Shown here one piece after another: positions 5,242 to 28,848 of a stretch of 64,000 bases of DNA. The translations under genes and the position numbers were made by a program. A model generated the notes under the pieces. That model ran no database searches, was not told the DNA's origin, and saw only the letters and a list, made by a program, of their open reading frames with translations. How positions within the stretch are numbered: the first letter of the stretch is position 1; the number at the start of each line of letters is the position of its first letter. Source of the stretch: Lachnospiraceae bacterium V9D3004 (lineage in GTDB: Bacteria; Bacillota; Clostridia; Lachnospirales; Lachnospiraceae); assembly GCA_000621985.1 (NCBI GenBank), contig JHWW01000011.1, positions 1-64,000 of the forward strand. Direction: 5' to 3'.

Positions 5242-5309
5242 ACTATAACATTATTCATAAGGTTGCAACCAAAATTTGCAAAAATGGTCAAATATGATAC
5301 AGTTTTGGT
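5242..5309 (-). promoter_or_regulatory. LytTR-type direct repeats and -10 box driving agrD
   Basis: Read on the minus strand, ACCAAAACT begins at 5309 and ACCATTTTTGCAAA begins at 5288, 21 bp apart. A -10 box TATAGT occupies 5247-5242, starting 41 bp from the second repeat. There is no good -35 box, as expected for an activator-dependent promoter. The predicted start is about 26 bases before the agrD ATG. Binding by the AgrA-like regulator is inferred from architecture. Confidence 0.75.
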
Positions 5310-5316
5310 AATTTTG

Positions 5317-5384
5317 ACCGTTTATGTCCGTTTTTTTACCACTTTTGCAAAAAATATAACTAATGTCAATTGATGAGTTATAAT
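5317..5384 (+). promoter_or_regulatory. LytTR-type direct repeats and -10 box driving agrB
   Basis: ACCGTTTAT (5317) and ACCACTTTTGCAAA (5338) are 21 bp apart and TATAAT lies at 5379-5384, 41 bp from the second repeat. ACCGTTTAT fits the published LytTR half-site pattern [TA][AC][CA]GTTN[AG][TG] at every position. The arrangement mirrors the divergent agrD promoter: the 13-base arms TTGCAAAAATGGT (5276-5288) and ACCACTTTTGCAA (5338-5350) are inverted with one mismatch. Confidence 0.78.
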
Positions 5385-5419
5385 ATTGCAAAGAATTGAA
5401 GAGGGAGGAAATAACACAT

Positions 5420-5998
5420 ATGACAAGCATAATCGTTAACTTATTGTATGATAATAACTTTATTGATAAAGATGAAATTGATGCCTATAAGTATTGTCTT
5501 GATTTCATACTGGAATATGTTATTTTCATAATTGTTTCACTTTTTCTCGGAGCTGTGTTTTTCAATATGATACCTGTTGGTTTATTTCTATTTTTTTTTA
5601 TTTTATTACGATCTTATGGGGGCGGATTTCACGCAAAATCACATCTTCGATGCGCAATATACTCATACCTGTCTATAATATTTATGATAGTCGTCTCATC
5701 TGCTATCATAAATAATTGGAATGAGCCAATAAACTATTGCGTCAATATTATTTTTGTATTATCATTTATCATATATATGATCTTTTCTCCTGTAATTCCA
5801 CATACAAAGAAGATTACTCTTGAAGATCATCATATTTTCAAAATCAAAAGTATTATTACCGGAATTATTACTTTTATTATTTATGCTATCTTTATGATAT
5901 CCGGCAATTATGATATATGCACTGCCATATCTTTTGGAACCCTGTTTTCATCAGCTGGCCTTATAATTGCAAAGAAAGGAGTACCTCATGAATCTTAA
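5420..5998 (+). CDS. agrB: AgrB-family peptide-processing membrane endopeptidase
   Basis: This 192-residue integral membrane protein of the accessory gene regulator B family cuts and cyclises the AgrD precursor at the membrane. It shows about five to six hydrophobic segments. The conserved catalytic His is in RSYGGGFHAKSHLRC, and the Cys in that segment (SHLRC) is the expected nucleophile. Length is normal for AgrB (about 190-200). Start chosen at ATG 5420: GAGGGAGGAA lies 9 bases upstream and is inside the longer TTG frame. It is the first gene of the agrB-regulator-kinase operon and overlaps the regulator by 11 bases. Confidence 0.92.
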   Translation: MTSIIVNLLYDNNFIDKDEIDAYKYCLDFILEYVIFIIVSLFLGAVFFNMIPVGLFLFFFILLRSYGGGFHAKSHLRCAIYSYLSIIFMIVVSSAIINNWNEPINYCVNIIFVLSFIIYMIFSPVIPHTKKITLEDHHIFKIKSIITGIITFIIYAIFMISGNYDICTAISFGTLFSSAGLIIAKKGVPHES

Positions 5999-6731
5999 CA
6001 TGGCAATATGTGACGACAACATTAACGAAATTAATCAGATAAAGTCACTTATTGAGACTTATCAGATAAAATATAACGATAATATACATGTAGACACCTA
6101 TACTTCTTCATATTCCCTTTTAGATAATTATTCTCAAGCGGGAAAATATCACATTCTGTTTCTTGATGTTGAAATGCCGCAGATGAATGGGCTTGATCTT
6201 GCAAGAAAAATCAGAGACATTCCTGATAAGTCGGTAAAGATAATATTTGTTAGCAATTATCCCGAATATATGCAAGACAGTTTTAATGTTCATGCATTTC
6301 ATTACCTGAAAAAACCATTGACTTTTGAATACTTCGAATCATTAATCAAAAGTATAATTGACGAATACAAAGATAATCACACTTCAAAATTTGTTTTAAG
6401 ATGTAAGGATCATTTAGAACTTATCACTATGTCTGATATTTTATATATTGAATCAGTGATAGGACATAGAGATTTTATAAAAGTAATTGCCACAGACGGA
6501 GTACATGAAGGAAGAGGATCCATAGCAGAATATCGTCTAACTCTTGACGACAATTATTTTATTGCCCCTCATCGCAGTTATCTTGTAAACCTTCTCCATG
6601 TTAAATTTGTATATAGGAAAGAACTGATACTTGATGATGGCACACACATTCCATTAAGCAGACAACATGAAAAAGAAATCAATGAATTGTTTTCTAAACA
6701 ATCTCTGACTATTCACAAACAAATGTACTAA
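5988..6731 (+). CDS. AgrA-like LytTR response regulator
   Basis: This 247-aa transcription factor has a receiver domain (residues 1-120) with phospho-acceptor Asp60 in ILFLDVEMPQMNG and acidic pair DD near residue 10. It has a C-terminal LytTR DNA-binding domain (about 140-240) with FIAPHRSYLVNLLHVK and IPLSRQ. Start is ATG 5988 (AAGGAG 7 bases upstream), overlapping agrB. By family it is phosphorylated by the adjacent kinase and activates the agr promoters through direct repeats of about 9 bp. Two such promoters lie next to the operon and another at 28.8 kb. Confidence 0.9.
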   Translation: MNLNMAICDDNINEINQIKSLIETYQIKYNDNIHVDTYTSSYSLLDNYSQAGKYHILFLDVEMPQMNGLDLARKIRDIPDKSVKIIFVSNYPEYMQDSFNVHAFHYLKKPLTFEYFESLIKSIIDEYKDNHTSKFVLRCKDHLELITMSDILYIESVIGHRDFIKVIATDGVHEGRGSIAEYRLTLDDNYFIAPHRSYLVNLLHVKFVYRKELILDDGTHIPLSRQHEKEINELFSKQSLTIHKQMY

Positions 6732-6756
6732 ATAATTATCAAGGTGGTTCAATATT

Positions 6757-8106
6757 ATGATTGACATTATTGCAATTATCGCAAGCTCTTTTTTTGATAT
6801 GTTCCTAATAATAATCTATTACTCAAAGATGTTTTCGGAAAGAAAAAAACCTGTTAGCAATGTTATGTTCTATTCCGGCTTCATATTAGTAGAAATACTA
6901 ATAAATATCTATTATGAATTAATATTTAATTCCATGGATGAATCAATGTCTGCAATCAGAACGCTGATAACAATTCTTTTCAGTCTTTTCACACTGTATA
7001 TGTTAACCTTGTATTATTCTGTTCACATTGCACATAGATTATTCGTGATCATTTCTTTTCAATTTTACTGTAATATTGGAGAATTCTTTGTATTTAAAAC
7101 CATTGATTCGTATTTGTCGTCATCAGGAACGGATATTGTTTTAGATGATTATATATTTAATCTTCTATCCAAAATTGTATGTTTCTTTATGATTATAATA
7201 ACAATTCTTATTGTAAAACGAAATAATACAAACTATACCATTCCGTATAGTATCCTTATTATTTCAACACCGATAATATCTATACTTACGATTATTGCCC
7301 TGTCTTTTTCTGAATCAATCAGTTTTGCCTTCCATATCATCAGATTTGTCAGCATTATCGGCCTACTGATTTTCAATATAACGAACTTTTATCTGTTGGA
7401 TCACATAATTCTGACAAAAGAACTGAGATTCAAGGAACAGACTCTTACCAGACAGATAGATTACCAGGCAGAGAAATATGATCTTATCCGTGAATCTTAC
7501 AGGGACACACGAAGGATCATTCACGATACCAAAACGCATTATATGTACATACGAGGTGCCATTGAAAGGCACGAATATGATTCACTCATTAATTATATTG
7601 ACAAACAGATTGACACTCTCGACAACAAATCCATACGTGTCAACAGTGGCAATCTTGCTATTGATTCACTTGTAAGCAGTTATATTCAGATTGCCGAGCA
7701 CGATGGAATACCATTCGAAACCAAGATTCGCATTACTCCAAAAGAAATTGACATAGACAACTATGATATGTGCGTTATTCTTGGTAATTTACTTGAGAAT
7801 TCCATCAACGCGAGCAGGAAGATCTCTTCGGTAGCTGACAGGCATATTCTGTTAGAAGCATATACTACCGCCACTAATTTCATACTTCATATAAGCAACA
7901 GTATTAATGCTTCCGACGAACCAAAACTAAAAAAGGAGATCAATGATTCTTTTTCTCCTGATGTGTTAAATCATGGGTATGGTATTGAGAATGTAAAAAA
8001 TATTGTCGCCAAATATCCTGCCGGAGTATTCAGTTACTTCATTGAAAAAGGAGAATATAATTCAATAATCATAATACCTAATCTTGAAAATACGGATCTC
8101 ATATAA
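6757..8106 (+). CDS. AgrC-like GHKL sensor histidine kinase
   Basis: This 449-aa protein has six or seven membrane segments in the first 210 residues, which is the expected peptide-sensing part. A coiled dimerisation region follows with a candidate phospho-acceptor His256 in RRIIHDTKTH, then a GHKL ATPase domain with N-box ENSINAS and glycine box GYGIENV. This matches AgrC/ComD kinases that bind the cyclic autoinducer outside the cell and phosphorylate the LytTR partner. It starts 25 bases after the regulator with AAGGTGG upstream, and ends convergently with the araC-type gene. Confidence 0.9.
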   Translation: MIDIIAIIASSFFDMFLIIIYYSKMFSERKKPVSNVMFYSGFILVEILINIYYELIFNSMDESMSAIRTLITILFSLFTLYMLTLYYSVHIAHRLFVIISFQFYCNIGEFFVFKTIDSYLSSSGTDIVLDDYIFNLLSKIVCFFMIIITILIVKRNNTNYTIPYSILIISTPIISILTIIALSFSESISFAFHIIRFVSIIGLLIFNITNFYLLDHIILTKELRFKEQTLTRQIDYQAEKYDLIRESYRDTRRIIHDTKTHYMYIRGAIERHEYDSLINYIDKQIDTLDNKSIRVNSGNLAIDSLVSSYIQIAEHDGIPFETKIRITPKEIDIDNYDMCVILGNLLENSINASRKISSVADRHILLEAYTTATNFILHISNSINASDEPKLKKEINDSFSPDVLNHGYGIENVKNIVAKYPAGVFSYFIEKGEYNSIIIIPNLENTDLI

Positions 8107-8122
8107 ATGAACACGTACATAT

Positions 8123-8950
8123 CTACCTGTATTTCCCGGGTGACACTCCCGTCATTTTCTTAAATGCACGTATAAAGTTGGCATAATCGTTAAAGCCTGA
8201 CATTGTACACGTATCGGATACACTGCTGCCTCTTTGAAGAAGTTTTTTGGCAGTGTCAATTCTCTTGTCAAGAATATATTCATGAACGGTCATTCCGGTA
8301 TGTTCCTTGAATTTCAGACCGATATAATTACTGCAGTAATTAAGGTTATTGCTAAGATCAGATAATGTTATATCCTGTGTCAGATTATCATCAATATACC
8401 GCATCGTATCTTTTACGAGGTCAGGCATGACATTTTTGTGCCTGACCGGTTTTTTCTCCATGAATAACATGTTGATATATATAAGCAATCTTGTAATGGC
8501 ATTCGCACACATTATATCGGCTCCATATTCATCCGAACCCGTAAGAGTAAGATACTCATCCACATAATGAATATATAACTTCATATCCTTCATATGAAGC
8601 GATATTATACTTGCTTCTTTTGTTTTTTCAAAACATTCTGCCAGCCCGGTACGTGGAGTAGACAACTCGTCAAGGACATTCTTTCCTATATTGATAACGA
8701 TGCGTTCATAAGGAGACGAATCATTTATTATAAGGCGATGAAGCACTCCGGGGCTTATTATTGCAAGATTGCCCGGAGTCATAATATAGCATTTGTCTTC
8801 TATATAGATTCTTGTATTACCTTTGACATACATATATATCTCATACCTGTCTTCATGTCTGTGATACGGAGGATTCTCTCCGGTAATGAAGTCTGTATTC
8901 GACCTGTGAAAGCACATGATCTTTTCAAGCATATCGTAATTAATTGGCAT
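8123..8950 (-). CDS. AraC-family regulator with N-terminal cupin
   Basis: This 275-aa regulator has a cupin-type sensor domain (residues about 10-130, with PPYHRHEDRYEIY and TPGNLAIISPGVLHR) and two helix-turn-helix motifs at the C-terminus (about 175-275, with LSDLSNNLNYCSNYIGLKFKE and GFNDYANFIRAFKK). Proteins with this plan usually sense sugars and control nearby carbohydrate genes. It is divergent from the GH115 gene (235 bases apart), so regulation of GH115 by this protein is the natural inference. Confidence 0.88.
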   Translation of the reverse strand: MPINYDMLEKIMCFHRSNTDFITGENPPYHRHEDRYEIYMYVKGNTRIYIEDKCYIMTPGNLAIISPGVLHRLIINDSSPYERIVINIGKNVLDELSTPRTGLAECFEKTKEASIISLHMKDMKLYIHYVDEYLTLTGSDEYGADIMCANAITRLLIYINMLFMEKKPVRHKNVMPDLVKDTMRYIDDNLTQDITLSDLSNNLNYCSNYIGLKFKEHTGMTVHEYILDKRIDTAKKLLQRGSSVSDTCTMSGFNDYANFIRAFKKMTGVSPGKYR

Positions 8951-9074
8951 AATTTGCTCTTACTCCTTTTCCGGCAGCTGTTATTCATCACATTGGACCT
9001 GCAAGCAATTACTGACTGAACAGACCAATTACTATTGTGTGATATTTGCAATAAATGATGTGAATTATGCAAGG

Positions 9075-9104
9075 ATTATAGCATATTACTATGATATACT
9101 TCAA
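9075..9104 (-). promoter_or_regulatory. Probable promoter of the araC-type gene
   Basis: On the minus strand TTGAAG (9104-9099) and TATAAT (9080-9075) are 18 bp apart. The 16-mer GATTATAGCATATTAC here (9074-9089, plus strand) recurs exactly at 13204-13219. Confidence 0.5.
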
Positions 9105-9126
9105 GCTGTAGTTCTTATCCACAGTC

Positions 9127-9154
9127 AATGTCATTAACTAAATGTCATTAACTA
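9127..9154 (+). repeat. Perfect tandem 14-bp repeat in the GH115 upstream region
   Basis: AATGTCATTAACTA occurs twice without interruption (9127-9140 and 9141-9154), ending 31 bases before the GH115 start codon. Two adjacent copies could be sites for the divergent AraC-type regulator or a recent slippage duplication. Confidence 0.7.
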
Positions 9155-9184
9155 ACAGTACATTTAATCAGGAGGGTATTTCAT

Positions 9185-12100
9185 ATGTCAAAAAAAATCA
9201 TATCATTTTTGATGGTCATTGGGTTGCTGATTAATATATTAGCGTTAAATGTGGGTGCGGTAAGCGTTAACAGTGCGGAGGTAAGTGCAATGGGAAACAC
9301 TCTGGGTAATCAGGCGGGATTCCTTCTGTCGGATGGAAATACTTCAGCGAAGGTATACGTCGATACCGCCAAAGAAGAGATGAGCAGTGGTGACGGACAT
9401 GAGTATTGCGGACTGGAGATTATTGCAAATACGTTCGCCGGTGATGTCGGTCTTGTTACAGGAAAAGATGCCGAGGTGGTCACAAGTGACGGTGACATGA
9501 GCGGTAATGTAATAATTGCCGGAACGATCGGCGGCAATGAAGTCATAGACAAGCTTATCGCAGCCGGAAGCATAGATGTGACCGGATTATATAAAGACGG
9601 TAAGCTCAAATGGGACTGTTATCAGATGCAGTTTGTTGACGGGAGTGTTCTTGCTTCTGCCGGCTACGGCGGTGTAAACAGGGCGCTTGTTATAACGGGC
9701 TCCAATAAGCGTGGTGCTATGTATGGACTGTTCAACATATCCGAACATATCGGTGTGTCTGCATGGGTATATATGGCTGATGCAGTACCGGCAAAATATG
9801 ACTCTGTATATCTTGATGAGTCTCTGCTTGAATTCGGAAGTGACGGTAATAATGACGGTATGTATCTTGCAAAGGAGCCATCGGTAAAATACAGGGGTTT
9901 TTTTATAAATGATGAATCACCTTCATTTACAGGCTGGGCCGGTCAGGCATTCGGCGGTCTTAACGAGAACTGTTACGAGCATATATTCGAGCTTCTGATA
10001 CGTATGAAAGCCAATTATATGTGGCCTGCAATGTGGGGCAACAGCTTCTCCGATGAAGGTAAGGCATTCAAGCTTGCCAATGTTGTTCTTGCAGACGCTT
10101 ACGGTGTGTGCATGGGTACTTCACATCATGAGGCGTGCTGCAGGGCGGGAGTTGAATGGCAGCGTATATACAGGCAGTACGGTAATAACAATGCATGGGA
10201 TTATTCTGTTAACAGTGATGCGATATATAAGTTCTGGAAAGAAGGAATAGAGAGAAACGGTGATTATGAAAGTACCATAACAATGGGTATGCGTGGTGAA
10301 GGTGACAGTGCCCTTAAGGGTGGCGTTCAGACGAATATTGATATTCTCAAAGATATCATAACCGACCAGAATGAGATCATATCTGATTATATAGCCGCCA
10401 ATCCTGACAGTAAGGCAAAGGATGCGCTCAAGATATATATTCCTTACAGCGAGAATGAAGAATATTATTACGGACCGGATGACGGAAGCATAGAGGGACT
10501 TAATGTGTGGGATGGAATGGATGATGTAACGATCATGCTTACTGATGATAATTATGGTAACGTAAGGTCTCTTCCCGAGGAGAGTGTCCGTAACAGGGAA
10601 GCAGGATTCGGACTGTACTATCATCTTGACGGTCATGTAGGTACCGGTGCATATGAATGGGTAAGCTCAACACAGCTTGAGCATATATGGGATCAGCTTA
10701 CGATGGCTTATGATTACAACGTAAGAAATATATGGGTTGTCAACGTCGGTGACATCAAGCCGGTAGAGATGGAACTCAATTATGCAATGGATATTGCATA
10801 TGACATGGAAAAATGGGGGCAGGAAAATACAGCAGATACATATAGAAAAATGTGGCTTACAGCTCAACTCGGTGGCGTAGGCAATTGTCCTTCCGATATT
10901 GCTGAGGGGATTGCTGAATGTGTGGCTGATTTTCTTAAAATAAGTACATACCGCAAGGCTGAATATGTCAAATCCGACCTATACAGCATTGATAATTACA
11001 ACGAAGCACAGAATGTCCTTGCATTATGCGAAAAGACAATTAATGAAGCTGATGATTATTATGCTCACTTCCGTGGAACCGAATGGGATGATGCATATTA
11101 TCAGATCGTATATTATCAGGCAGTTGGTACAGCCAATGTAACAAGAATGCAGATATACAAGGGACTTAATGATTATTTTGCGGCAAGGAACAGCTCTCTT
11201 GCCAATGTATACGCAGGACTTGTCAATGACTGTGTGGAATATGACAAGGAGCTTACGGATTATTACAACAATAAAATGAGTAATGGTAAATGGAAGAAAA
11301 TGATGTCTTCACCTCATGTAGGCTTTGTATCATGGGATTCAAGCGGATGGAGTTATCCTTCTCCGAAAACTGTTAAGCTTGGACAGGATGCAAAGATGCT
11401 TGTAACTCTGGATGGTTCTTCTGACATATATGAAAAAGGGGACGCTGCCCTTCCATTATTTACCAACACCGTAAAACAGAGATATTGTATAACGTTAAGT
11501 AACGGTGGAACCGATGAATATTCATTTACAATAGGCACTCTTGCAGACTGGATTCAGATCACCGATAAGACCGGCGACAGAATTGTTAACGGAGGAATCG
11601 TAAAAGATGCCGCTTACGTATATGTATCAATCGACTGGAGCAGAGTCCGTTCGGACAAGACCGGAACCATAGTTATCAGATCTGTTGCCGATGGAACGGC
11701 AGATGACAAAGAAGCACAACAGGAAGTAAAGATCACGGTCAACACTTCTTATACAGAATATAAGAGCAAAGGGATCGGAACACATTTTGAAAGCAATGAT
11801 GTCGTTGTTATTGACGGCTGCGAATTCATCAATAATACACCATCGGAAGATGGAACAATATGGAGCCGCATCAACGGTTACGGAAGATACGATTCTGCCA
11901 TGAAGATGCTTCCGACAACTAAGTCATTTACTAAGCCTACAGGAGGAACATACGAGGTCAAAGGCGGCAATACAGTAAGAACGGTAACCGATTATGAAGA
12001 AAACTACGACGCTCCATATCTAGAATACAGATTCTATGTTGATGAGGAAGACGATTATACATTTACAATGTATACCACAACTACCAACAATATATTCAAG

Positions 12101-13000
12101 CCTTCAGGCTGGGGATACGTTCCTGTGGAATTATTCTACGGAATAAGTGTTGATGACGGATTCATGCAACAGATCAACTCACTTCCGGATGGCAAATATA
12201 TCTCCTATGCTGCTGACGGCGATAACAAATGGATAGATGGTATTAAGAATAATATCCATGTATCCACTTCCTCAGAACATATGACCGAAGGACTTCATAC
12301 CGTTAGAATATACGGTATGCATGCGGGACTCGGTGTGGAAAGGCTTGTTATAAGCAACAAAGATATCAAACAGAGTTACCTCGGACCCGAGAAAACATTT
12401 ATGCTTGATTATGATATAATTCCTGAACAAAAGACTGGTGTTCATTCTGAAGCAGCGGTCTCTGAATTAAGTTACGGCAAGCCCGAAAACTTAAGCGATA
12501 TCACGGATGCCTCAGATACCAATGATCCTGCTGACAGTTACGAAGAGGAAACTGCAATTCCGAGACCTTATGTTCCTGATAATTCAGGCAGTCAGAATAC
12601 AGGTAATACCGGCAGTGTTCCGGGAGCGTACAATAATTCTACCGGACAAAGTTCTGCGACAGGTGTACCGACCACAACTGCTACAGGCAATACCGACAGA
12701 TCCACAACCGGCAAGAAAGTTGTCAAGGGTAAGAATTATTCCTATAAGGGCGGTATATACAAGGTAACAAAAGCAACCAAAAAAGGCGGAAAAGTAACCT
12801 ATATGTCACCTGTGAAGAAAAATGTCAAAAAGATCACAATTCCATCCAGAATAAAGCTTGGCAAAAAAACTTATACCGTTACCGCAATATCTAAAAATGC
12901 CTTCAAAAAGTGCAAAAACCTCAAGAGCGTAACGGTGCCGAAAAAGCTTTACAAAAAATGTAAAAAAGCCAATAAAAAGATACGGGTTATCAAGGGATAA
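9185..13000 (+). CDS. Secreted GH115 xylan alpha-1,2-glucuronidase with C-terminal repeat domain
   Basis: A 1271-aa exported enzyme with a signal peptide (residues 1-25) and a GH115 catalytic region (about 50-650). Marks include GSNKRGAMYGLFNISEHIG, SVKYRGFFINDE, NYMWPAMW and GTSHHE. The GH115 C-terminal domain follows (about 890-1080, ending near SYLGPEKTFML). After a Thr/Ser/Asn linker (about 1110-1175) comes a Lys-rich LRR-5-like tail with ITIPSRIKLGKKTYTVTAI. GH115 enzymes remove (4-O-methyl)glucuronic acid from xylan side chains. GGAGGGTATTTCAT precedes the ATG. The basic tail probably holds the enzyme at the cell surface (inference). Divergent from an AraC-type regulator; a terminator follows. 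Confidence 0.92.
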   Translation: MSKKIISFLMVIGLLINILALNVGAVSVNSAEVSAMGNTLGNQAGFLLSDGNTSAKVYVDTAKEEMSSGDGHEYCGLEIIANTFAGDVGLVTGKDAEVVTSDGDMSGNVIIAGTIGGNEVIDKLIAAGSIDVTGLYKDGKLKWDCYQMQFVDGSVLASAGYGGVNRALVITGSNKRGAMYGLFNISEHIGVSAWVYMADAVPAKYDSVYLDESLLEFGSDGNNDGMYLAKEPSVKYRGFFINDESPSFTGWAGQAFGGLNENCYEHIFELLIRMKANYMWPAMWGNSFSDEGKAFKLANVVLADAYGVCMGTSHHEACCRAGVEWQRIYRQYGNNNAWDYSVNSDAIYKFWKEGIERNGDYESTITMGMRGEGDSALKGGVQTNIDILKDIITDQNEIISDYIAANPDSKAKDALKIYIPYSENEEYYYGPDDGSIEGLNVWDGMDDVTIMLTDDNYGNVRSLPEESVRNREAGFGLYYHLDGHVGTGAYEWVSSTQLEHIWDQLTMAYDYNVRNIWVVNVGDIKPVEMELNYAMDIAYDMEKWGQENTADTYRKMWLTAQLGGVGNCPSDIAEGIAECVADFLKISTYRKAEYVKSDLYSIDNYNEAQNVLALCEKTINEADDYYAHFRGTEWDDAYYQIVYYQAVGTANVTRMQIYKGLNDYFAARNSSLANVYAGLVNDCVEYDKELTDYYNNKMSNGKWKKMMSSPHVGFVSWDSSGWSYPSPKTVKLGQDAKMLVTLDGSSDIYEKGDAALPLFTNTVKQRYCITLSNGGTDEYSFTIGTLADWIQITDKTGDRIVNGGIVKDAAYVYVSIDWSRVRSDKTGTIVIRSVADGTADDKEAQQEVKITVNTSYTEYKSKGIGTHFESNDVVVIDGCEFINNTPSEDGTIWSRINGYGRYDSAMKMLPTTKSFTKPTGGTYEVKGGNTVRTVTDYEENYDAPYLEYRFYVDEEDDYTFTMYTTTTNNIFKPSGWGYVPVELFYGISVDDGFMQQINSLPDGKYISYAADGDNKWIDGIKNNIHVSTSSEHMTEGLHTVRIYGMHAGLGVERLVISNKDIKQSYLGPEKTFMLDYDIIPEQKTGVHSEAAVSELSYGKPENLSDITDASDTNDPADSYEEETAIPRPYVPDNSGSQNTGNTGSVPGAYNNSTGQSSATGVPTTTATGNTDRSTTGKKVVKGKNYSYKGGIYKVTKATKKGGKVTYMSPVKKNVKKITIPSRIKLGKKTYTVTAISKNAFKKCKNLKSVTVPKKLYKKCKKANKKIRVIKG

Positions 13001-13022
13001 ACTACAAAACCCTCAGAAAATC

Positions 13023-13063
13023 AGTCCCCCGACATCAGTATTATAGACTGTTGTCGGGGGACT
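13023..13063 (+). terminator. Intrinsic terminator after GH115
   Basis: AGTCCCCCGACA (13023-13034) and TGTCGGGGGACT (13052-13063) form a perfect 12-bp stem, followed by TTATTAATT. It lies 23 bases after the GH115 stop. Confidence 0.85.
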
Positions 13064-13080
13064 TTATTAATTCATCTTGG

Positions 13081-13267
13081 TCATTCCGGTATAAGCTGAT
13101 ATGCTGCTTTCTTAAAAATATATTTATTATACTCGAATTTCTTTGGATCCACATGATTGGCAAGCTCACTTGAGGTAATGAAATCGGAAGATACGTATGC
13201 ATAGATTATAGCATATTACAGGCAATTTCGGCAAATGTGTGTCTTTAGGGCCTTAGGGAAGGTTTAC
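13081..13267. other. Non-coding or decayed stretch between GH115 and the GH115 fragment
   Basis: On the minus strand a short unrecognised open segment ends at 13081 (SSELANHVDPKKFEYN within it) but has no convincing start or ribosome site. Just upstream of it is TATAAT within a 16-mer shared with the araC promoter (13204-13219). It may be the debris of a deleted gene. Confidence 0.4.
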
Positions 13268-13434
13268 CTACTTCATATAACTCTCTACCGGTCCGAGATA
13301 TGATGTCTTAAGCTTGTTAGCTGTCGGAAATATTACATATTTTTCCATGACAAGCGCCGGATCGACAGCATATATTCTCATCGTATGAACACCTTCTTCA
13401 AGTGTTCCGATCGATCTCTCAATCTTTGTATATT
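13268..13434 (-). pseudogene. C-terminal fragment of a second GH115 gene
   Basis: The minus-strand frame ending with TAG at 13268 encodes about 55 residues including GTLEEGVHTMRIYAVDPALV and SYLGPVESYMK. These align by eye with the GH115 gene next door (MTEGLHTVRIYGMHAGLGVE and SYLGPEKTFML). There is no start codon and the rest of the gene is absent, so this is a remnant on the opposite strand of the intact gene. Confidence 0.75.
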
Positions 13435-13437
13435 CTC

Positions 13438-14838: not shown

Positions 14839-14877
14839 CGTATAACCTCCTGATTTATATTAAATTTTAATAGTTTC

Positions 14878-16149: not shown

Positions 16150-16152
16150 GTT

Positions 16153-18225: not shown

Positions 18226-18257
18226 CATATAATTCACTGTTATGTAACATATTAATT

Positions 18258-20039: not shown

Positions 20040-20166
20040 AATAATATTTTCCTCCTGTTGAATTGAATATATTTTGTATGCCATCCTATATGATAACATA
20101 TTACTACCCGAATGAATATGACTATTAATATAAAAAATATTGATAATATTTGTAATATGACATGAA

Positions 20167-21849: not shown

Positions 21850-22077
21850 AGTAACACATCCTTTGCTGCACTACCCCTATAGTTATTTTTTATCATAACA
21901 TACTTTATAAATAATTTCCACAAGTTTTATATTGTTATCATTCACAATTCCCCACGTCCTTAACCCATAGACCATCTGCTTCGCATATGTCGTGGCTATG
22001 CCGCTTATAAGTTTGACTACATACCGTAATATGTGATATTATAGCTGTAATCATATCTTCCAAGGAGGTTCATAATT

Positions 22078-22455
22078 ATGCAGTTAAACGAATCAGCGGA
22101 AAATTATCTTGAAACAATATTGATAATAGGAAAAAAGACACCTTACGTACGTTCCGTAGACGTGGCTAACGAACTTGGATTCAAAAAGTCCAGCGTAAGT
22201 ATCGCCATGAAGAATCTTCGTGAGAAAAACTACATTACCGTTGCAGATTCCGGCCATATATCCCTGACGGATTCGGGAAGGGAAATTGCCGAGATGATAT
22301 ATGAAAGGCATGAACTGTTATCCAAAGCGCTCATCAAGCTTGGAGTACCTGAAAAGACAGCTCTTGAGGATGCGTGCAAGATGGAGCACGACATAAGCAA
22401 AGAAAGCTTTGAAGCATTAAAAGGATTATTGGTAAAATTTTTGAAAGACGAGTAG
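22078..22455 (+). CDS. DtxR/MntR-family metal-dependent repressor
   Basis: This 125-aa protein has an N-terminal winged helix (SAENYLETILIIGKK, VRSVDVANELGFKKSSVSIAMKNL) and a dimerisation and metal-binding helical region (AEMIYERHELLSKALIKLGV, DACKMEHDIS with His, Glu and Cys ligands). There is no SH3-like third domain, so it is the short MntR-like type. AAGGAGG lies 9 bases before the ATG. It is followed by a potassium channel gene after 17 bases. The family senses Fe2+ or Mn2+; the GTTAG-N6-CTAAC palindromes at 43-59 kb are possible targets (inference). Confidence 0.9.
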   Translation: MQLNESAENYLETILIIGKKTPYVRSVDVANELGFKKSSVSIAMKNLREKNYITVADSGHISLTDSGREIAEMIYERHELLSKALIKLGVPEKTALEDACKMEHDISKESFEALKGLLVKFLKDE

Positions 22456-22471
22456 TCTAAAGGAGATCTTT

Positions 22472-23410
22472 TTGAAAAGAAAACTGTTCGATATACTTCA
22501 GATTGGCGATAAATCCAACTCTGCCAGCAGGCTGTTTGACATATTTATCGCCATTAATATTTTTGTCAATATATTTGCCACATTACTGATGACCTTCAGC
22601 GAGCTTGAAGGTTATTACGATACATTCAAGATCATTGAGATAGTTACTACTATCGTATTCGCTGTTGAATATGTACTCAGAATCTGGACAGCGGATTATC
22701 TGTATCCGCAATACAGCATAAAAAAAGCCCGTCTCAGGTTCCTTGTGTCGTACGACGGCATTGTCGATCTGTTCACGATCTTACCGGCATTCTTCCTGAC
22801 AGGCTTCATAGCATTTCGCATGTTGCGTGTAATACGAATATTCCACTTATTCAGAATAAATAAACAATATGATTCATTTAATGTGATAACGAATATTCTT
22901 GTTGAGAAAAAGAATCAGATATTCTCATCGATCTCGATCATATTCATATTGATGGTCGGAAGCAGCCTGTGTATGTACAGCGCCGAACACGAAGCCCAGC
23001 CGGAAGTATTCCGCAATGCTTTCAGCGGTCTGTGGTGGTCTGTAAGTACAGTCCTTACAGTCGGTTACGGCGACATCTATCCGGTAACCGTTCTCGGAAA
23101 ATGTATGGCAATTCTTATAGCATTCCTCGGCGTAGGCGCCGTTGCCATCCCCACAGGTATAATCAGTGCCGGATTCGTTGAACAATACACAATGAAAAAC
23201 AGAGATCCGGCAGGATATCAAATGCTCGACCTGAAAGATATTGTCGAAATACTCGTTGATGACAAGCTTACAGGAAAAACCGTAAAAGACATCCAGAAAA
23301 ATGAAGGACTCCTCGTATATCTTATTCTCAGAGACGGCTTATCGGTCGTTCCCAAAGAAAGACTTGTCACAAAACCGGGCGATATTATTATTGCAAAGAT
23401 TGATAAATAA
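22472..23410 (+). CDS. Voltage-gated-type potassium channel with C-terminal RCK-like segment
   Basis: This 312-aa membrane protein starts at TTG 22472 with AAAGGAG 7 bases upstream. It has S1-S4-like segments, including an Arg-rich stretch FRMLRVIRIFHLFRIN. The pore carries selectivity filter TVLTVGYGDIYPVT. The C-terminal cytosolic piece (LVTKPGDIIIAK) resembles a TrkA-C ligand-binding end. It probably conducts K+ across the cell membrane. It lies close behind the DtxR-type gene on the same strand. Confidence 0.88.
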   Translation: MKRKLFDILQIGDKSNSASRLFDIFIAINIFVNIFATLLMTFSELEGYYDTFKIIEIVTTIVFAVEYVLRIWTADYLYPQYSIKKARLRFLVSYDGIVDLFTILPAFFLTGFIAFRMLRVIRIFHLFRINKQYDSFNVITNILVEKKNQIFSSISIIFILMVGSSLCMYSAEHEAQPEVFRNAFSGLWWSVSTVLTVGYGDIYPVTVLGKCMAILIAFLGVGAVAIPTGIISAGFVEQYTMKNRDPAGYQMLDLKDIVEILVDDKLTGKTVKDIQKNEGLLVYLILRDGLSVVPKERLVTKPGDIIIAKIDK

Positions 23411-23430
23411 TAAAAAAACCTTCTGTAATC

Positions 23431-23859
23431 CTATTCCGTAACTTCTTCATCAAGCTCAAGTTCTGAAGTACAGTGAGGACATCTTGTTGCTTTGATAGAT
23501 ATCTCGCTCTGGCAGAACGGACACTTCTTGGTAGTCTTCTCTTCTTCCTTCTTTGGAATGATCTTGCTTGATGCAACATTCATCAGCTTGATAATAATGA
23601 ATATGACAAGTGCCATGATAAGGAAGCTTATGATCGCTGTAATGAACTTGCCGTAATACACTGTCGCGTCACCGTTAAGAACAAGACAATACTGATCAAA
23701 ATTCTTGCCTCCAAGCAGACCAAGCAGCGGATTGATGATATCATCCACAAGCGATGTTACGATCGTTGAAAATGCACCACCGATAATAATACCTACTGCC
23801 ATGTCAATGACATTACCTTTGCTGATAAAATCCTTGAACTCTTTTAAAAAGCTCTTCAT
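23431..23859 (-). CDS. mscL: Large-conductance mechanosensitive channel with C-terminal zinc ribbon
   Basis: This 142-aa protein has the MscL N-terminus (FLKEFKDFISKGNVIDMAVG, then TM1 with IIIGGAFSTIVTSLVDDIINP) and TM2 (about 75-100). It opens under membrane tension to release solutes. After residue 105 it carries CPFCQSEISIKATRCPHC, a zinc-ribbon of two CxxC pairs in place of the usual short tail. Start at ATG 23859 with GGAGG 9 bases upstream. It ends convergently with the potassium channel gene. Confidence 0.93.
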   Translation of the reverse strand: MKSFLKEFKDFISKGNVIDMAVGIIIGGAFSTIVTSLVDDIINPLLGLLGGKNFDQYCLVLNGDATVYYGKFITAIISFLIMALVIFIIIKLMNVASSKIIPKKEEEKTTKKCPFCQSEISIKATRCPHCTSELELDEEVTE

Positions 23860-23874
23860 ATGATCAACCTCCAC

Positions 23875-24507
23875 TTATATAATATTCAATGCCTCTTTTG
23901 CCAGGGCATCCGCAATATCATTATACTTGTTATTGGAATGACCTGCAACCTTTACAAACTTAATATCTATCAGTTTTTTCGCGTCATCATAATAATTCTT
24001 ATACGCGACAGTTCCCTCTTTGTTGGTCTTCCACGCTCCTGTACACCAGCTCTCGATCCCCTGATAATCATAATAAATGACAACGCTCTTACAGCCATTG
24101 TCAATAGCATACTGCATTGCGGCTTCGGCGCCTTTTATCTCACCTGCGACATTCCTCATAGATGCAAGATCCGGATCATTCATTTTCTTATTATACTTAA
24201 GTTCTTCATCACCTTGAAGGATCACCATTCCATATGAATATTCACCTGTAGCGGGATTATAACTTCCGTCCACATAAGCTTCTATGTCCTTTGTGGCAGT
24301 TCCATTAACCCGATCATCAGACTTTCCTATACGATCTTCAGCCGTTTCCGGTACATCTATTCCAATAAAAGCAAGAGCTTCCTCTTTTGTACGAAAGCTC
24401 TTATATATCGCCCCGGAAAATCCGTCCACCTGAGCCTTACACTCATCCCAAGTCATATATATTCCGGGTGTGAGACCCTTTTTTACCGCATAATATTTTA
24501 CTGCCAT
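23875..24507 (-). CDS. rnhA: Ribonuclease H with N-terminal viroplasmin-like domain
   Basis: This 210-aa protein has an N-terminal caulimovirus viroplasmin/RNase H1 hybrid-binding domain (residues 1-50, YYAVKKGLTPGIYMTWDECK and VDGFSGAIYKSF). The RNase H fold (about 75-208) has the catalytic set: Asp in AYVDGSYN, Glu in VAGEIKGAE, Asp in IYYDYQGIE and C-terminal Asp in YNDIADALAKEA, plus His in VAGHSNNKYND. It removes RNA from RNA-DNA hybrids. It is 15 bases upstream of mscL. Confidence 0.93.
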   Translation of the reverse strand: MAVKYYAVKKGLTPGIYMTWDECKAQVDGFSGAIYKSFRTKEEALAFIGIDVPETAEDRIGKSDDRVNGTATKDIEAYVDGSYNPATGEYSYGMVILQGDEELKYNKKMNDPDLASMRNVAGEIKGAEAAMQYAIDNGCKSVVIYYDYQGIESWCTGAWKTNKEGTVAYKNYYDDAKKLIDIKFVKVAGHSNNKYNDIADALAKEALNII

Positions 24508-24537
24508 ATATCTAAATATCCTGTTCGTATCATATTC

Positions 24538-26208
24538 TTAATCCAAAAAATATCTGTCCTTGCCATTCTCCTTGGCAATATACATCGCGTGATCTGCTTT
24601 CTCGATAATACCTGCCCTGTCTGTCTCTTCTCCGTCTGTTATATGGACGCCGATACTGCATGATACAACCGCTCTGGTTCCCATTCCGCGAAGGCCGATA
24701 CCCACATGCATATTCTCCATGTATTCGTCAAGTATATTTTTTATATTATCAATAGCCTTATCGTCAGTCATGAAAAATCCGAATTCGTCTCCGCCTATAC
24801 GCCCCACTTCACCTTCAATCACTCTTTCAAGTGAAAGCGCAACAAACCTGATAACCTGATCACCTACCCTGTGACCGTATCTTGTGTTAAAATCCCTGAA
24901 ATCATCTATATCAACAAAACCGACGGCGATACGTGTCTTATTCTCGTTAGCCTCTGTTAAGGCAGCATCAAGAAGCGACTCAAATGCCCTCTTATTATTA
25001 ATTCCGGTAAGTGCATCTGAATCAGCCAGTTCCACCAGATTCTTACGTATCTTCTCACCACTCAAATGATCTCTTTCCATAATAGTCAGCATGGCATCAA
25101 TCTGCTCGGATACATATCCAAGTTCATTCCTGCTATGGAAATCGACTCTGGCTGAATAATCACTGTTTTTCTGAAATCTTGTAAGCGTATCGACGATCTT
25201 GTTGATAGGCTTAACGATCTTTTTACTGAGGAAGAATTCCACAAGAGCCATCGTAAGCAGCACAGAGAACATTATAATTCCGACAAGCACCTTAAAGTCC
25301 TGCGTCGTATTTTTATAAAAACCGGAATCCATAACTACGAGAATATCCCAATTAGTACTTTTGATATCCGAATAGAATACTTTCCTCTCACTGCCGTCTT
25401 TTGTGTAATAGAATTCACCCGAGCCTGTATTATTGCTCTTCTCGCTATGCCACATCTCTTTCATTGTGTCATCATATACACTCTCGTCATAAGCATCTTC
25501 ATAATCTTTGACATCGGACAATGCTTTTCCGGCAGAGATTATCCGGTCATTTCCATCCAACAAAATTATCGTTCCGTGCTCACCCATAAGAGCCTGCGTG
25601 CGAAATCTGCTGAGATATTCGATAGCAAACTTTTCAACAATATATCCGATCAATTTGTTATTGGAAAATACTCCCCTGACAGCTTCAACGTATTTCTCGT
25701 CTTCATCATCATCGGTCTTCTGGCTCTTAATATCCGATATAAAGAAATCTCCGCCTTTGAAATCGTCTTCACTTTCTTCAGCATCGACATATCTGTCACG
25801 ATATTTGAATTCCGTTGATGATACAACAACATAATTCCTATCAATGATTGACAGACTCATAAGATAATCTTTTGAAGTCACCTGTTCCTGAAGAATATTG
25901 TCGAGATAACGAACATCCTTATGCCTTGAATTAAGGCTTGCCCACAACGCTTCTTTAACAACATCAAGCTGGGCGATGATATCCATATTCTCTTTTCGTG
26001 ACTCAAGAAAACTCTGTATACTCTGTATCTGATTCTCAGACAGCATGGTAATGTCATCATGCATTGCCTGTTCAATACGTTCGGAATTCTTATACACAAG
26101 CCATGTTCCGAACACAGCAACAGGCACAGTTGCAGACAAAAACAGTATAACAAATATTATATTGCGAATGCCGTTTTTTTGTTTCTGTTTTTTACTCTTG
26201 CCGCCCAT
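24538..26208 (-). CDS. Membrane diguanylate cyclase with Cache sensor, HAMP and GGDEF domains
   Basis: This 556-aa protein has an N-terminal TM helix (about 15-35), an extracellular dCache-type sensor (about 40-290), a second TM (about 300-320) and a HAMP linker (about 320-375, SKKIVKPINKIVDTL). An intact GGDEF domain follows (about 390-555, GRIGGDEFGFF, with RVGDQVIRFVA). It should make c-di-GMP in response to an external ligand, opposing the EAL protein at 20.2-21.8 kb. No RxxD inhibitory site was clearly found. AAGGAG precedes the ATG. Confidence 0.93.
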   Translation of the reverse strand: MGGKSKKQKQKNGIRNIIFVILFLSATVPVAVFGTWLVYKNSERIEQAMHDDITMLSENQIQSIQSFLESRKENMDIIAQLDVVKEALWASLNSRHKDVRYLDNILQEQVTSKDYLMSLSIIDRNYVVVSSTEFKYRDRYVDAEESEDDFKGGDFFISDIKSQKTDDDEDEKYVEAVRGVFSNNKLIGYIVEKFAIEYLSRFRTQALMGEHGTIILLDGNDRIISAGKALSDVKDYEDAYDESVYDDTMKEMWHSEKSNNTGSGEFYYTKDGSERKVFYSDIKSTNWDILVVMDSGFYKNTTQDFKVLVGIIMFSVLLTMALVEFFLSKKIVKPINKIVDTLTRFQKNSDYSARVDFHSRNELGYVSEQIDAMLTIMERDHLSGEKIRKNLVELADSDALTGINNKRAFESLLDAALTEANENKTRIAVGFVDIDDFRDFNTRYGHRVGDQVIRFVALSLERVIEGEVGRIGGDEFGFFMTDDKAIDNIKNILDEYMENMHVGIGLRGMGTRAVVSCSIGVHITDGEETDRAGIIEKADHAMYIAKENGKDRYFLD

Positions 26209-26322
26209 AACTAATCTCCTTACAAAATTATATACAGACCTTTATAATATTACCATAAAAAGACAATTTTGTAAAGCAATTAACCTCACCATGGGGCCAC
26301 GTTTAGTGTAAACCTCTTAACC

Positions 26323-27009
26323 TTAAGCTTCACACAGAAAACCTGCGTACGGAAATTTGTATAACATGACTTCTGTTCCGAACATATCGACTCTTTTGCC
26401 GCTTGCACTTCCATCAACGATCTCTTGTGCACCGGCAATTAGTTTTCCTATAAGATCAGGTTTAACGGGGAATGAACCGTGCATCGGATATATCTCATCA
26501 TATGTTCCGTCATATTCCGAAAGGTGCTTCAGACTTTCAATATATCTGTCTATATTCCTGTATTTACCAAACATGAATATATTGCCATCCTGAATTGTAT
26601 CACCACTGATCAATATCCTATTCTTTTCATCAAGTATAGCTATGCTTCCGGGCGTATGTCCGGGAATGTCAATGATCTTCAGAACTCTTCCGCCAAGATC
26701 TATAACATCATGCTCGCGTATCGGTATGAGCTTTCCCGTTCCTCCATGTCCCCTGTAATTCTCCTCTTCGTCAGGAGACATATAGAATTCGTCAAATGCG
26801 GCATTGCCGGCAATATGATCCGGATCTGCATGTGTGTATATCATTACAATAGGCAACTTCGTAAGTTCGCAAGCTATAGCTTTTGCATCAGATGTAGTCA
26901 TACCCGAATCTATCAGGGCTGCCCTTTCTTCTCCGCAGAGCAACAAAAAACGCACGTGACCGTCTTCTATCCTCCATGTATTGTTGTTAATCTGAATAAT
27001 ATCAGGCAT
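26323..27009 (-). CDS. MBL-fold metallohydrolase
   Basis: This 228-aa protein of the metallo-beta-lactamase fold has the metal-binding motif TYTHADPDHIAGN-like segment (THADPDH), a further ligand in GHTPGSIAIL, SGDTIQDG and a C-terminal MHGSFPV His. The family includes glyoxalase II-like and quinone-type hydrolases; the substrate is not predictable. ATG 27009 follows the DUF6120 stop directly, with CAGGAGG upstream, so it is translated in the padR operon. Confidence 0.85.
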   Translation of the reverse strand: MPDIIQINNNTWRIEDGHVRFLLLCGEERAALIDSGMTTSDAKAIACELTKLPIVMIYTHADPDHIAGNAAFDEFYMSPDEEENYRGHGGTGKLIPIREHDVIDLGGRVLKIIDIPGHTPGSIAILDEKNRILISGDTIQDGNIFMFGKYRNIDRYIESLKHLSEYDGTYDEIYPMHGSFPVKPDLIGKLIAGAQEIVDGSASGKRVDMFGTEVMLYKFPYAGFLCEA

Positions 27010-27399
27010 TCAATCCTCCTGTTCCGTATATATTATACTTTCTTCTCTTACTACTATTGAATCAATACACTGTCTATATGAATCATACAGCAATATGAAT
27101 TTGACACATGTTATTAAAAGTGCAAGAATTAATACAAGTACAGCCACTTTCCTTACAACACCCGAAAACCTTAACCTCTTAACCAGATAATCAATATCAA
27201 TATCGGTATAATATTCAGCAATTAATTCGGTAGGTTTTCCCATGATATCAACTATAGAATCGTAATCTATATTGGAATTATCATCGTTGATCTCAGTTAT
27301 TCGTTCCTTAATTCGTTGCAAAAAGCGCTTCTCATATTTTCCTTTAGCCGGAAGAAGTGTCTTTATCTCCTTAAAATATCTACTTGAATCTTTATTCAT
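27010..27399 (-). CDS. DUF6120-like membrane protein
   Basis: This 129-aa protein has a soluble helical N-terminal half (YFKEIKTLLPAKGKYEKRFL, PTELIAEYY) and one TM helix (about 88-108). The plan resembles DUF1700/DUF6120 proteins that are routinely paired with PadR regulators in Firmicutes. It overlaps the end of the PadR gene by 8 bases and abuts the MBL gene. Probably a membrane partner or anti-regulator of the PadR system, a role inferred from context. Confidence 0.75.
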   Translation of the reverse strand: MNKDSSRYFKEIKTLLPAKGKYEKRFLQRIKERITEINDDNSNIDYDSIVDIMGKPTELIAEYYTDIDIDYLVKRLRFSGVVRKVAVLVLILALLITCVKFILLYDSYRQCIDSIVVREESIIYTEQED

Positions 27400-27757
27400 T
27401 CAGCTCTTCCTCCTTAATCCCGGAATAATCATAATTCAGTATCTTATCAATAGATTCAGTTGTACTATGATATTCGTTATACAATTGTTCCAAACGTTCC
27501 TCTCCGGCCGGTTCTATATGATAATAAACTCTTATAAGCCTTTTGCCGACCTGCTTCTTGTAATCAGATATATAACCGTTATCTATCATCTTATAGAACG
27601 AAGGATACATAGACCCCTCAGGGAACGACAGATTATTATCGCTTATCTTCTTAATATACTGTGATATCTGGTATGCATAAGAATCACCGAGATTTTTAAG
27701 AATGTGTAGTACAAGCATCTCACATGAACCTGTTTTAAAACCATTTCTTGCAGCCAT
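27392..27757 (-). CDS. PadR-family transcriptional regulator
   Basis: This 121-aa repressor-type protein has a winged helix with EMLVLHILKNLGDSYAYQIS, SFPEGSMYPSFYKMIDNGYI and YYHIEPAGEERLEQL, then a short dimerisation helix. PadR proteins usually repress their own operon and nearby envelope or transporter genes. It is first in a three-gene operon with the DUF6120 and MBL genes, divergent from the frameshifted lipoprotein gene. AGGGAGGGG lies before the ATG. Confidence 0.9.
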   Translation of the reverse strand: MAARNGFKTGSCEMLVLHILKNLGDSYAYQISQYIKKISDNNLSFPEGSMYPSFYKMIDNGYISDYKKQVGKRLIRVYYHIEPAGEERLEQLYNEYHSTTESIDKILNYDYSGIKEEELNE

Positions 27758-27831
27758 AAGCCCCTCCCTTTACAATCTCTTTATATAACAAATAGAGGAT
27801 AATGTCAATGTGTAGTTTTTCTAAATAGTTG

Positions 27832-27860
27832 TTGACAAAGGTGCTAATGATTATTATAAT
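27832..27860 (+). promoter_or_regulatory. Sigma-70-type promoter upstream of the lipoprotein gene
   Basis: TTGACA (27832-27837) and TATAAT (27855-27860) are spaced by 17 bases, a consensus vegetative promoter about 100 bases before the lipoprotein start. Confidence 0.8.
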
Positions 27861-27959
27861 TGATTTCATAGTAATTGTATCTGATCAAACACATCATGGT
27901 GTTCTGATAATTCCATCCTCCATGGGAGACTACCTGAGCCGGAAGGAGATATGAAACAT

Positions 27960-28500
27960 ATGAAACTAAAAAAAACATTACAGTTATCATTATTTTGCAT
28001 CCTTATGATGTGTTTTTTTACAGCATGCTCATCAGAAAATGATATAGCTGACATAGATCCAATTTCCGGTGAGGAAAGTATTGCTTATATAGAAAAACTA
28101 CCGAACTGTCAAAAGAGACAATGGCGATATGGAATTCTACGAAATATGTACCAATTATCAGGTTACAGTAATTGAAAACATTAAAGGCAAACTGAAAAAA
28201 AACTCTCCTATTGAAGTTGCAAAGGATGGAGGCGTTTCCAAAGATAAAACATATATTCAGTTATATGATGAAGATTCATTACCAAAGGAAGGCAAATATT
28301 ATATTATGGTCGGTACAGTACAGCCGGATGGTACCCTGTTAATATCAGGTTCAAATTCTAACATTCAATTAAATGCAAAAAAAAGTAATGATATTGTATC
28401 TGACAATACTTTTAAGGATTATGAAAAGTATTATAAAAACGAAAAAAAATATGATATAGAACACTTTAAATCAAAATACGAAGAAACAAATTCTAAATAA
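27960..28500 (+). pseudogene. Lipoprotein gene interrupted by a frameshift
   Basis: The first frame encodes a lipoprotein signal (LQLSLFCILMMCFFTAC) and then SIAYIEKLPNCQK before running into noise. The reading continues, shifted by one base at about 28113-28116, as DNGDMEFYEICTNYQVTV and goes to TAA at 28500 (KYEETNSK). Joined, the product is about 180 aa with an extracytoplasmic domain of unknown role. One extra base in CAAAAGAGAC explains the break. It could be a true pseudogene or an assembly error. Confidence 0.75.
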
Positions 28501-28680
28501 ATGGTATATTGTATAAGTGGCTACTTCAACTACTCTTCTGCTTATATCGAAACAATTGCAGACAATGTACTTGTCATTAAAGAAGGCACTCTTGTCGCCG
28601 ATGATTCACCTGAACAGCTTGTTAATTCTGTAAACGGGAAGAATCTGGAAGATGTGTATATGCGTTACTTTGATGCCTAA
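28501..28680 (+). pseudogene. C-terminal remnant of an ABC transporter ATPase
   Basis: This 59-residue frame directly after the lipoprotein stop reads SSAYIETIADNVLVIKEG and then ADDSPEQLVNSVNGKNLEDV, the typical end of an ABC-2-type exporter ATPase. Walker A, Q-loop and signature are absent. No ribosome site precedes the ATG, so it is a deletion remnant. Confidence 0.75.
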
Positions 28681-28684
28681 AATG

Positions 28685-28713
28685 ACCACTCGTCGGAAAA
28701 AGCGACCGTTCGT
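28685..28713 (+). promoter_or_regulatory. Second possible LytTR direct-repeat pair
   Basis: ACCACTCGTCGGAA (28685) and ACCGTTCGTCGGAA (28705) are direct repeats 20 bp apart; ACCGTTCGT fits the LytTR half-site pattern fully. No -10 box is seen at the expected offset. It may be an auxiliary or decayed site upstream of the promoter at 28781. Confidence 0.45.
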
Positions 28714-28780
28714 CGGAAGATTGTTGCGGTGCCGAATGTAGAAATGTTATTGTTCTGATATGCAAGAAGCATAACTTTTT

Positions 28781-28848
28781 ACCATTCATGTAGAAAAAAT
28801 GACCACTTTTGCAAAAAATGGTCACGATAGGAAAAAACATGATATTAT
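28781..28848 (+). promoter_or_regulatory. agr-like LytTR target promoter upstream of the C39-like peptidase
   Basis: ACCATTCAT (28781) and ACCACTTTTGCAAA (28802) are 21 bp apart and TATTAT lies at 28843-28848, 41 bp from the second repeat. Both distances equal those of the agrB and agrD promoters, and the second repeat is identical to the agrB one over 14 bases. The predicted start is about 230 bases upstream of the gene at 29084. The 403-base gap has no intact gene: a Lys-rich open segment (28900-29020, ending EVVCSEMKEK) lacks a start codon. Confidence 0.75.

Follow-up and report, generated by a model that had tools for sequence, protein, structure and literature searches.

What does it mean when three promoters, one of them ~23 kb from the other two, share the same repeats at the same distance from a -10 box? 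The question arises in Lachnospiraceae bacterium V9D3004, where we analysed a window of 64,000 nucleotides (contig JHWW01000011.1, positions 1 to 64,000 of the forward strand; assembly GCA_000621985.1). Two of the promoters stand back to back in a split agr-type locus (2282-8106) and the third precedes a gene, here called 29084 after its start, for a probably secreted 638-aa protein (Table 1). An earlier note on this DNA had taken the shared geometry as the mark of a single activator, most simply the AgrA-like LytTR protein encoded in the locus. We find that the geometry is shared with LytTR promoters in general, that the sequence word set in it is rare in the genome, and that the remote promoter also bears the word of a second LytTR/GHKL circuit. 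Our preferred reading, which we consider likely, is that the agr-type sites are targets of the phosphorylated response regulator of the locus (5988-6731), which would autoinduce agr and also turn on the remote gene, with 29084 probably under dual control.

The geometry itself is exact, just as the earlier note had described it. At all three promoters the two ACC repeats keep a 21-bp period, as in LytTR-type direct repeats of 9-10 bp with an 11-12 bp spacer, and the repeats lie directly 5' of the core promoter, the -10-like box starting at +41 in each case, within the ~40-42 bp expected of such sites. The six half-sites all fit ACCNNNNNTG and have a G at position 10, the first agrD half-site being degenerate beyond its ACC. 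The further statement that no good -35 is present is mostly right, and holds for the agrB promoter, which has neither TGGTCA nor TGGTTG; however, the remote site carries TGGTCA 18 bp 5' of its -10, two mismatches from TTGACA, and the agrD site has TGGTTG in the equivalent position.

Table 1. Features of the agr-type locus, the three promoters and the remote gene (window positions).
Feature	Position	Strand	Remarks
911-aa DNRLRE/CBM96 protein, probably secreted	2282..5017	-	3' of agrD; start codon uncertain
54-bp element, 11-bp GC-rich hairpin and likely ribosome-binding region	4958..5011	-	between agrD and exoprotein gene
agrD, 51-aa cyclic-lactone autoinducer precursor	5054..5209	-	contains VNSCRGIYYQPEEPEG; TIGR04223 34.6 bits vs cut-off 19
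agrD promoter, -10-like TATAGT	5242..5247	-	41 bp past second ACC
agrD promoter, second half-site ACCATTTTTGCAAA	5275..5288	-	
agrD promoter, first LytTR-type half-site ACCAAAACTGT	5299..5309	-	most degenerate of six
agrB promoter, first half-site ACCGTTTATGT	5317..5327	+	
agrB promoter, second half-site ACCACTTTTGCAAA	5338..5351	+	
agrB promoter, -10-like TATAAT	5379..5384	+	41 bp past second ACC
agrB, peptide-processing membrane protease	5420..5998	+	PF04647 107 bits
AgrA-like response regulator, receiver and LytTR domains	5988..6731	+	PF00072, PF04397; motif FIAPHRS
AgrC-like GHKL histidine kinase	6757..8106	+	PF14501 60.7 bits
Second-circuit LytTR-type pair ACCACTCGTCGG-N8-ACCGTTCGTCGG	28685..28716	+	20-bp period; starts 96 bp 5' of agr-type pair
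Weak -10-like TATTGT for second-circuit pair	28748..28753	+	at remote promoter
Remote promoter, first half-site ACCATTCATGT	28781..28791	+	
Remote promoter, second half-site ACCACTTTTGCAAA	28802..28815	+	
Remote promoter, -10-like TATTAT	28843..28848	+	41 bp past second ACC
Predicted remote target, 638 aa, probably secreted, two GBS_Bsp-like repeats	29084..31000	+	signal peptide by eye
Big_2-domain protein	31063..31758	+	62 bp 3' of target

The word held in common is rare. A scan of the 3.42-Mb genome for the composite ACC-N18-ACCAYTTTTGCAAA gives three matches at zero mismatches, none at one, one at two and 28 at three, where the reversed pattern used as a control has 17 in total at up to three mismatches. 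Under a third-order Markov model built from the window, a genome should hold 0.0014 exact copies by chance, a figure to be read with the caveat that the word was derived from the same three sites that are counted. Extending the composite by the -10 box puts the three promoters in first place, at 0, 0 and 1 mismatches, and the next match has 2; the total at up to three is 69, against 84 in the control. The genome scan that the earlier note had called for puts the exact composite at the three named promoters only, and the many random matches of the same spacing that would have spoken against it were not seen. As proof of the word, shuffling the window alone is weak: three copies of the 14-mer are found there at up to two mismatches against 1.46 expected, and 19 of 100 shuffles reach three, although all three copies are exact. 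A union consensus of both half-sites found the agrB and remote sites at zero mismatches and 12 others only at three, against 21 in its control, and it misses the agrD site, which is too degenerate for it. On these genome scans for the agr-type word we claim no fourth target.

The spacing is far less particular than the word. We scanned the non-coding DNA of loci containing response regulators of this kind for direct 9-mer repeats (at most one mismatch, spacings 13-45), beginning with 89 loci (nine stretches, including the strain's own second circuit, and 80 more) and keeping 75 after 14 had been dropped for shared sequence; the window was excluded. A spacing of 21 was the commonest, with 41 pairs in 29 of the 75 loci, and every other spacing held 0-17 pairs. 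Among 12 CC-type pairs with this spacing outside the window, five have a -10 (one mismatch or none) whose distance from the first repeat is exactly 62 bp, and from the second 41 bp; each other offset from 45 to 90 holds at most one, and the background is 1.7% per position. The five comprise L158 and L203, known before the scan, and the newly found L227 and two sites of L221 (G and L numbers are our handles for genomes and loci, G000 being the strain's own genome). Four of the 12, three from Paenibacillus together with L274, resemble terminator hairpins and not LytTR-type sites.

Characterized promoters have similar arrangements. Autoregulated LytTR promoters are described in which repeats of 9 bp are separated, in most cases, by 12 bp, and in that of Streptococcus mutans HdrR the series ACCTCTTAG-12-ACCACTTAA, 8 bp, TGGTCA, 15 bp, TGCTATAGT places TATAGT at +41 (PMC6193735). 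For SilA the repeats are 10 bp and the spacer 11 bp, changes of one nucleotide in the spacer abolish activity, and position 10 is important (PMC2766830); provided that the registers correspond, the G at position 10 of our half-sites is in line with this essential position. At the RgaR-dependent spoZ promoter the G residues reported as critical lie at -51 and -72 (PMC10602386). The argument from identical spacing to a single activator is not supported, as LytTR promoters in general have the 21-bp period and the -10 offset and the genome encodes six LytTR proteins. Since the same frame recurs with other words, the spacing would tell which class of regulator is at work, and the word which member of it.

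That recurrence is seen in relatives. AgrB matches occur in 43 of 145 genomes, the strain's own included, with 21-33% identity outside it, and a peptide-pattern scan of the genome contigs with AgrB found no relative. Because AgrB is a poor orthologue probe, promoter footprints were sought through the response regulator, whose closest counterpart is 47% identical (G001). Two genomes of the same genus, G005 (L158) and G007 (L159), have the same agr layout with the frame in both divergent promoters. The words in G005 are ACCGTTCACGT twice rightward and ACCGCTCACGT/ACCACTTACGT leftward, with the -10 at +41 in both; the first repeats in G007 read [A/G]CCGYTTGTTCC, with the -10 at +41 for agrD (TAAGAT) and +42 for agrB. 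Searched for in six genomes at up to three mismatches, the G005 word pair is exact only at its own two agr promoters and appears once in G001, at three mismatches (reversed control, eight matches). G002 carries ACCATTTATG/ACCATTTATT with a -10 at +41, 5' of a regulator-kinase pair at which no agrB was found. G001 has ACCATTCATGTA, 21 bp, ACCATTCGCCGC 5' of its regulator, with a poor TACCAT (two mismatches) at +41, and its first half-site shares 12 identical bases with that of the remote site. A composite 1 bp shorter than ours matches 49 of the 145 genomes at up to one mismatch, with 64 matches outside G000 against 42 for the reversed control, and has a single exact copy among the 144 related genomes (G086). 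It appears that the frame and not the word is conserved among relatives, with no sign of conservation of the word.

The locus itself has the parts of an agr system, with profile matches to an AgrB protease, an AgrD precursor, a GHKL sensor kinase and a LytTR response regulator. The exoprotein gene and agrD point leftward and the genes for AgrB, the regulator and the kinase rightward, with the two promoters in the 210 bp between agrD and agrB. The agrD product matches TIGR04223 and has no Pfam match, and the kinase and regulator score far under the NCBIfam cut-offs for the AgrC (Staphylococcus) and AgrA equivalog models. The staphylococcal agrBDCA order with RNAIII is not seen, agrD being divergent and the order B-A-C, with no Rfam match in 1-35000; C. 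acetobutylicum has separate agrBD and agrCA operons, and the staphylococcal order is not demanded of clostridial agr loci. The agrD-agrB intergenic region had no match in a plasmid collection.

We propose a model in which AgrB would process and export AgrD, and the cyclic peptide, our presumed signal, would activate the GHKL kinase. The response regulator, putatively in its phosphorylated form, would bind the two half-sites, which at 21 bp are two turns apart and so face the same side of the helix, immediately 5' of a promoter with a poor -35, and activate transcription from the predicted start sites near 5235, 5391 and 28855. It would turn on agrD and the surface protein gene leftward, agrB-agrA-agrC rightward in a positive feedback, and 29084 at a distance. 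The domains of the regulator (receiver and LytTR), the agr context and the position of two sites at its own promoters favor the nomination made in the earlier note; the spacing, on which that nomination had leaned, is by itself no pointer. The regulator is implicated because of the shared word and the autoregulatory placement, the geometry saying only 'LytTR'. Of the steps proposed, autoinduction of agrD and agrB has the best support. That this regulator also controls 29084 is supported by the exact word, the period and the -10, though not by comparison with relatives.

The remote promoter proved richer than a single LytTR site. It also carries a second pair of repeats, 5' of the agr-type pair, and a genome scan for this word pair at up to three mismatches gives three copies, all exact, against none in the control and 5.5e-8 expected. 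The other two copies belong to a second LytTR/GHKL locus, in which a LytTR protein (C1:667.3 kb; regulator gene at G000:C1:667291-667980) adjoins a GHKL kinase. Beside them a 17-aa open reading frame (ORF), MLYTSGDFWEWFKKWFG, is present twice (L146 7153-7206 and 8209-8262; G000:C1:667.2 and 668.2 kb), each time with an apparent ribosome-binding site. Both copies stand behind ACCGTTCGTCGG-N8-ACCGTTCGTCGG, and 3' of one lies a paralogue of the remote target (38% identity). Their product is a candidate linear peptide signal; no agrB match was found within the 12 kb examined there. The period in this circuit is 20 bp, with poor -10 candidates, TAGCAT and TATTGT, 62-63 bp from the first repeat. Around the pair, and counting the repeats, 71 bp of the remote stretch align with the second-circuit promoter at 76% (E 8e-9); the similarity below the repeats alone is weak, being equalled by 1% of 2000 shuffles. 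We had also considered the GACCACTCGTCGG repeats at 28684 as ends of an insertion sequence, a reading dropped once the pair was seen to be the promoter word of the second circuit.

Because this exact word is also there, the remote promoter is not a simple one-activator target. What the earlier note predicted of it stands as far as word, period and -10 are concerned, but it had missed the second LytTR word. Two rare words side by side support dual control, and 29084, bearing the private word of the second circuit too, would probably answer to both. The remote gene and its promoter may have been duplicated from the second circuit and then gained the agr-type pair, or may keep both inputs.

Several observations weigh against our preferred reading. 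The paralogues of the target in relatives have no agr-type pair upstream at five loci (L151, L152, L153, L155 and L156; G009, G003 and G007), a sixth, partial copy (L154) lying outside that comparison, so the remote link is without comparative support. Directly 5' of the second-circuit pair is an apparent gene fragment, ORF 28501-28680, which by eye is like the C-terminal end of an ABC-transporter ATPase. Five LytTR proteins besides the locus regulator are encoded in the genome. The -10 offset works out to +40 for BrsR and +42 for several other promoters in PMC6193735. The G011 loci show no ACC-type 21-bp pair, L206 and L165 having 20-bp repeats of other sequence. Finally, the conserved tail TTTTGCAAA of the second half-site is absent from the first half-sites, unlike the situation in G005 and in the second circuit.

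Some of these points would be accommodated if the agrD and agrB sites were real and the remote one a relic or an accident of duplication, so that 29084 answers to the second circuit only, or to none. The paralogy of the two targets and the alignment of their promoters fit this history, as do the adjoining gene fragment, the stops in two G009 paralogues and the lack of an agr-type pair at the relatives' loci. Yet the remote pair matches exactly in its word, its period and the place of its -10, its TATTAT is a better -10 than the TATTGT of the second circuit there, and the 638-codon frame is intact, all of which leaves this account unlikely in our view. A different binder for the agr-type sites, one of the other LytTR proteins of the genome, is suggested by their number and by the generic frame; however, the repeats of the second circuit and a pair 0.6 kb 3' of a third LytTR gene (ACCGAATA) read differently, the regulator's own locus supplies two of the three promoters, and the G005 and G007 loci of the same layout repeat the pattern with words of their own, so that we regard another binder as improbable. 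A repressor binding a dyad would have in its favor the perfect-arm inverted repeat TGACCA-N13-TGGTCA at the remote site and a partial one at agrD; it is scarcely credible, for the dyad is missing at agrB, whereas all three promoters and those of relatives have the direct repeat, and TGGTCA would equally suit the -35 place in the HdrR promoter (PMC6193735).

With binding by the locus regulator kept as the preferred reading, it is tempting to speculate further that 29084 is a two-input quorum gate, at which two LytTR circuits with chemically different peptides, one cyclic and derived from AgrD, the other linear and of 17 aa, each read a private word, in a lineage that keeps a near-invariant frame and swaps the words in it. 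By such a frame we mean a period of 21 or 20 and a -10 ~62 bp from the first half-site, across LytTR paralogues and species. We hold this idea tentatively, at slightly less than an even chance. If true, it would amount to an address system that separates sister circuits, and a gene could switch allegiance by gaining a word. A constant frame with changing words may also allow LytTR regulators to be paired with their targets from sequence alone.

Much of this has precedent, as the geometry, the protein families and LytTR autoregulation are already known. The S. mutans systems HdrR and BrsR likewise use ACC-type 9-bp half-sites with a 12-bp spacer and 21-bp period, show positive autoregulation and have overlapping regulons, and the HdrR promoter has the same numbers as ours, with TGGTCA placed as at the remote site (PMC6193735). 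They employ a membrane inhibitor, whereas the present locus has AgrB/AgrD and a kinase; the second half-site word here is longer (to TGCAAA), and two circuits have two words in tandem. S. gallolyticus BlpR and BlpS have a common single binding site. Because overlapping LytTR control is known from HdrR/BrsR and BlpR/BlpS, the new point is that the words are two different ones.

The agr system of S. aureus, with AgrA at P2/P3, shares AgrB, AgrD, a GHKL kinase, a LytTR regulator, divergent promoters and direct repeats 5' of promoters with suboptimal -35/-10 spacing (PMC4227749). By comparison there is no single BDCA operon here, agrD running leftward with the surface protein gene and agrB-A-C rightward; Rfam gave no RNAIII match in 1-35000, and the regulon by word is three promoters. 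Clostridial RgaR/VirR is likewise a LytTR regulator with very few direct targets and critical G residues 21 bp apart (PMC10602386), but that paper suggests that clostridial Agr is generally not autoregulatory, while the present system, with its different word, is predicted to be positively so. SilA of group A Streptococcus matches it in the 21-bp period, the essential exact spacing and a small regulon obtained by genome scan, the peptide SilCR being of the competence-stimulating type and not an AgrB/AgrD product (PMC2766830). In searches of the open-licence literature we found no description of an agr locus split divergently so that agrD leads into a surface protein gene, of a longer word private to one circuit, or of a two-word LytTR promoter. 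A coincidence of spacing has in this way become a testable three-promoter regulon in a Lachnospiraceae lineage, with two quorum circuits that seem to converge on one secreted-protein gene.

As to the genes under these promoters, the 911-aa gene is probably co-transcribed with agrD and the Big_2 gene possibly with the remote target. In the 638-aa protein the GBS_Bsp-like repeats alone score above cut-off in Pfam; NCBIfam gave nothing for the window copy and a PDB profile search nothing convincing, and a single-sequence AlphaFold model (mean pLDDT 31) is of no use for the fold. A stretch that we take, from an alignment read by eye, to be a papain/C39-like Cys-His domain finds no support in a family match, and the His block of that alignment is missing in the paralogue L152. 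The leaders of four copies (window 28898, L151, L152 and L153) contain very short ORFs (ATG-TAA twice, MST-stop and MQNKT-stop), each behind an apparent ribosome-binding site, in a position that matches the 17-aa ORF of the second circuit; the leader of the G003 copy (L155) has none.

The 54-bp element 3' of agrD is a further link between the circuits, for it recurs at 98% identity in the second one, where it separates the exoprotein paralogue from the 17-aa ORF, and its hairpin occurs only in those two places in the genome at up to three mismatches. Because it is without a T run, we read it as a probable leader or mRNA-stability element and not as a terminator.

Other pairs were seen near LytTR genes. 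About 0.6 kb 3' of the third LytTR gene, ACCGAATAAACA-N9-ACCGAATAGACA (L148 5111-5143; G000:C1:13.1 kb) has a 21-bp period with TAAAAT at +43 and precedes a protein of at least 1198 aa, in which a signal peptide is visible by eye; the pair may be one more private word ahead of an exoprotein gene. In G003 and G004 (L217 4871, minus strand; L218 7466, plus strand) a shared 21-bp pair, TCCTTTCGTGC/ACCRTTCATGC, followed by TATCAT as its -10, lies immediately past a regulator-kinase pair and points downstream. At the contig ends, window 1-622, with a Big_2-like gene, is an inverted 98.7% match to the right end of G000:C1 (L146 11522-12143), and window 1236-1762 matches that end as well, at 88.5%. 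The two contigs may adjoin through this inverted repeat, in which case the two circuits would be near neighbors.

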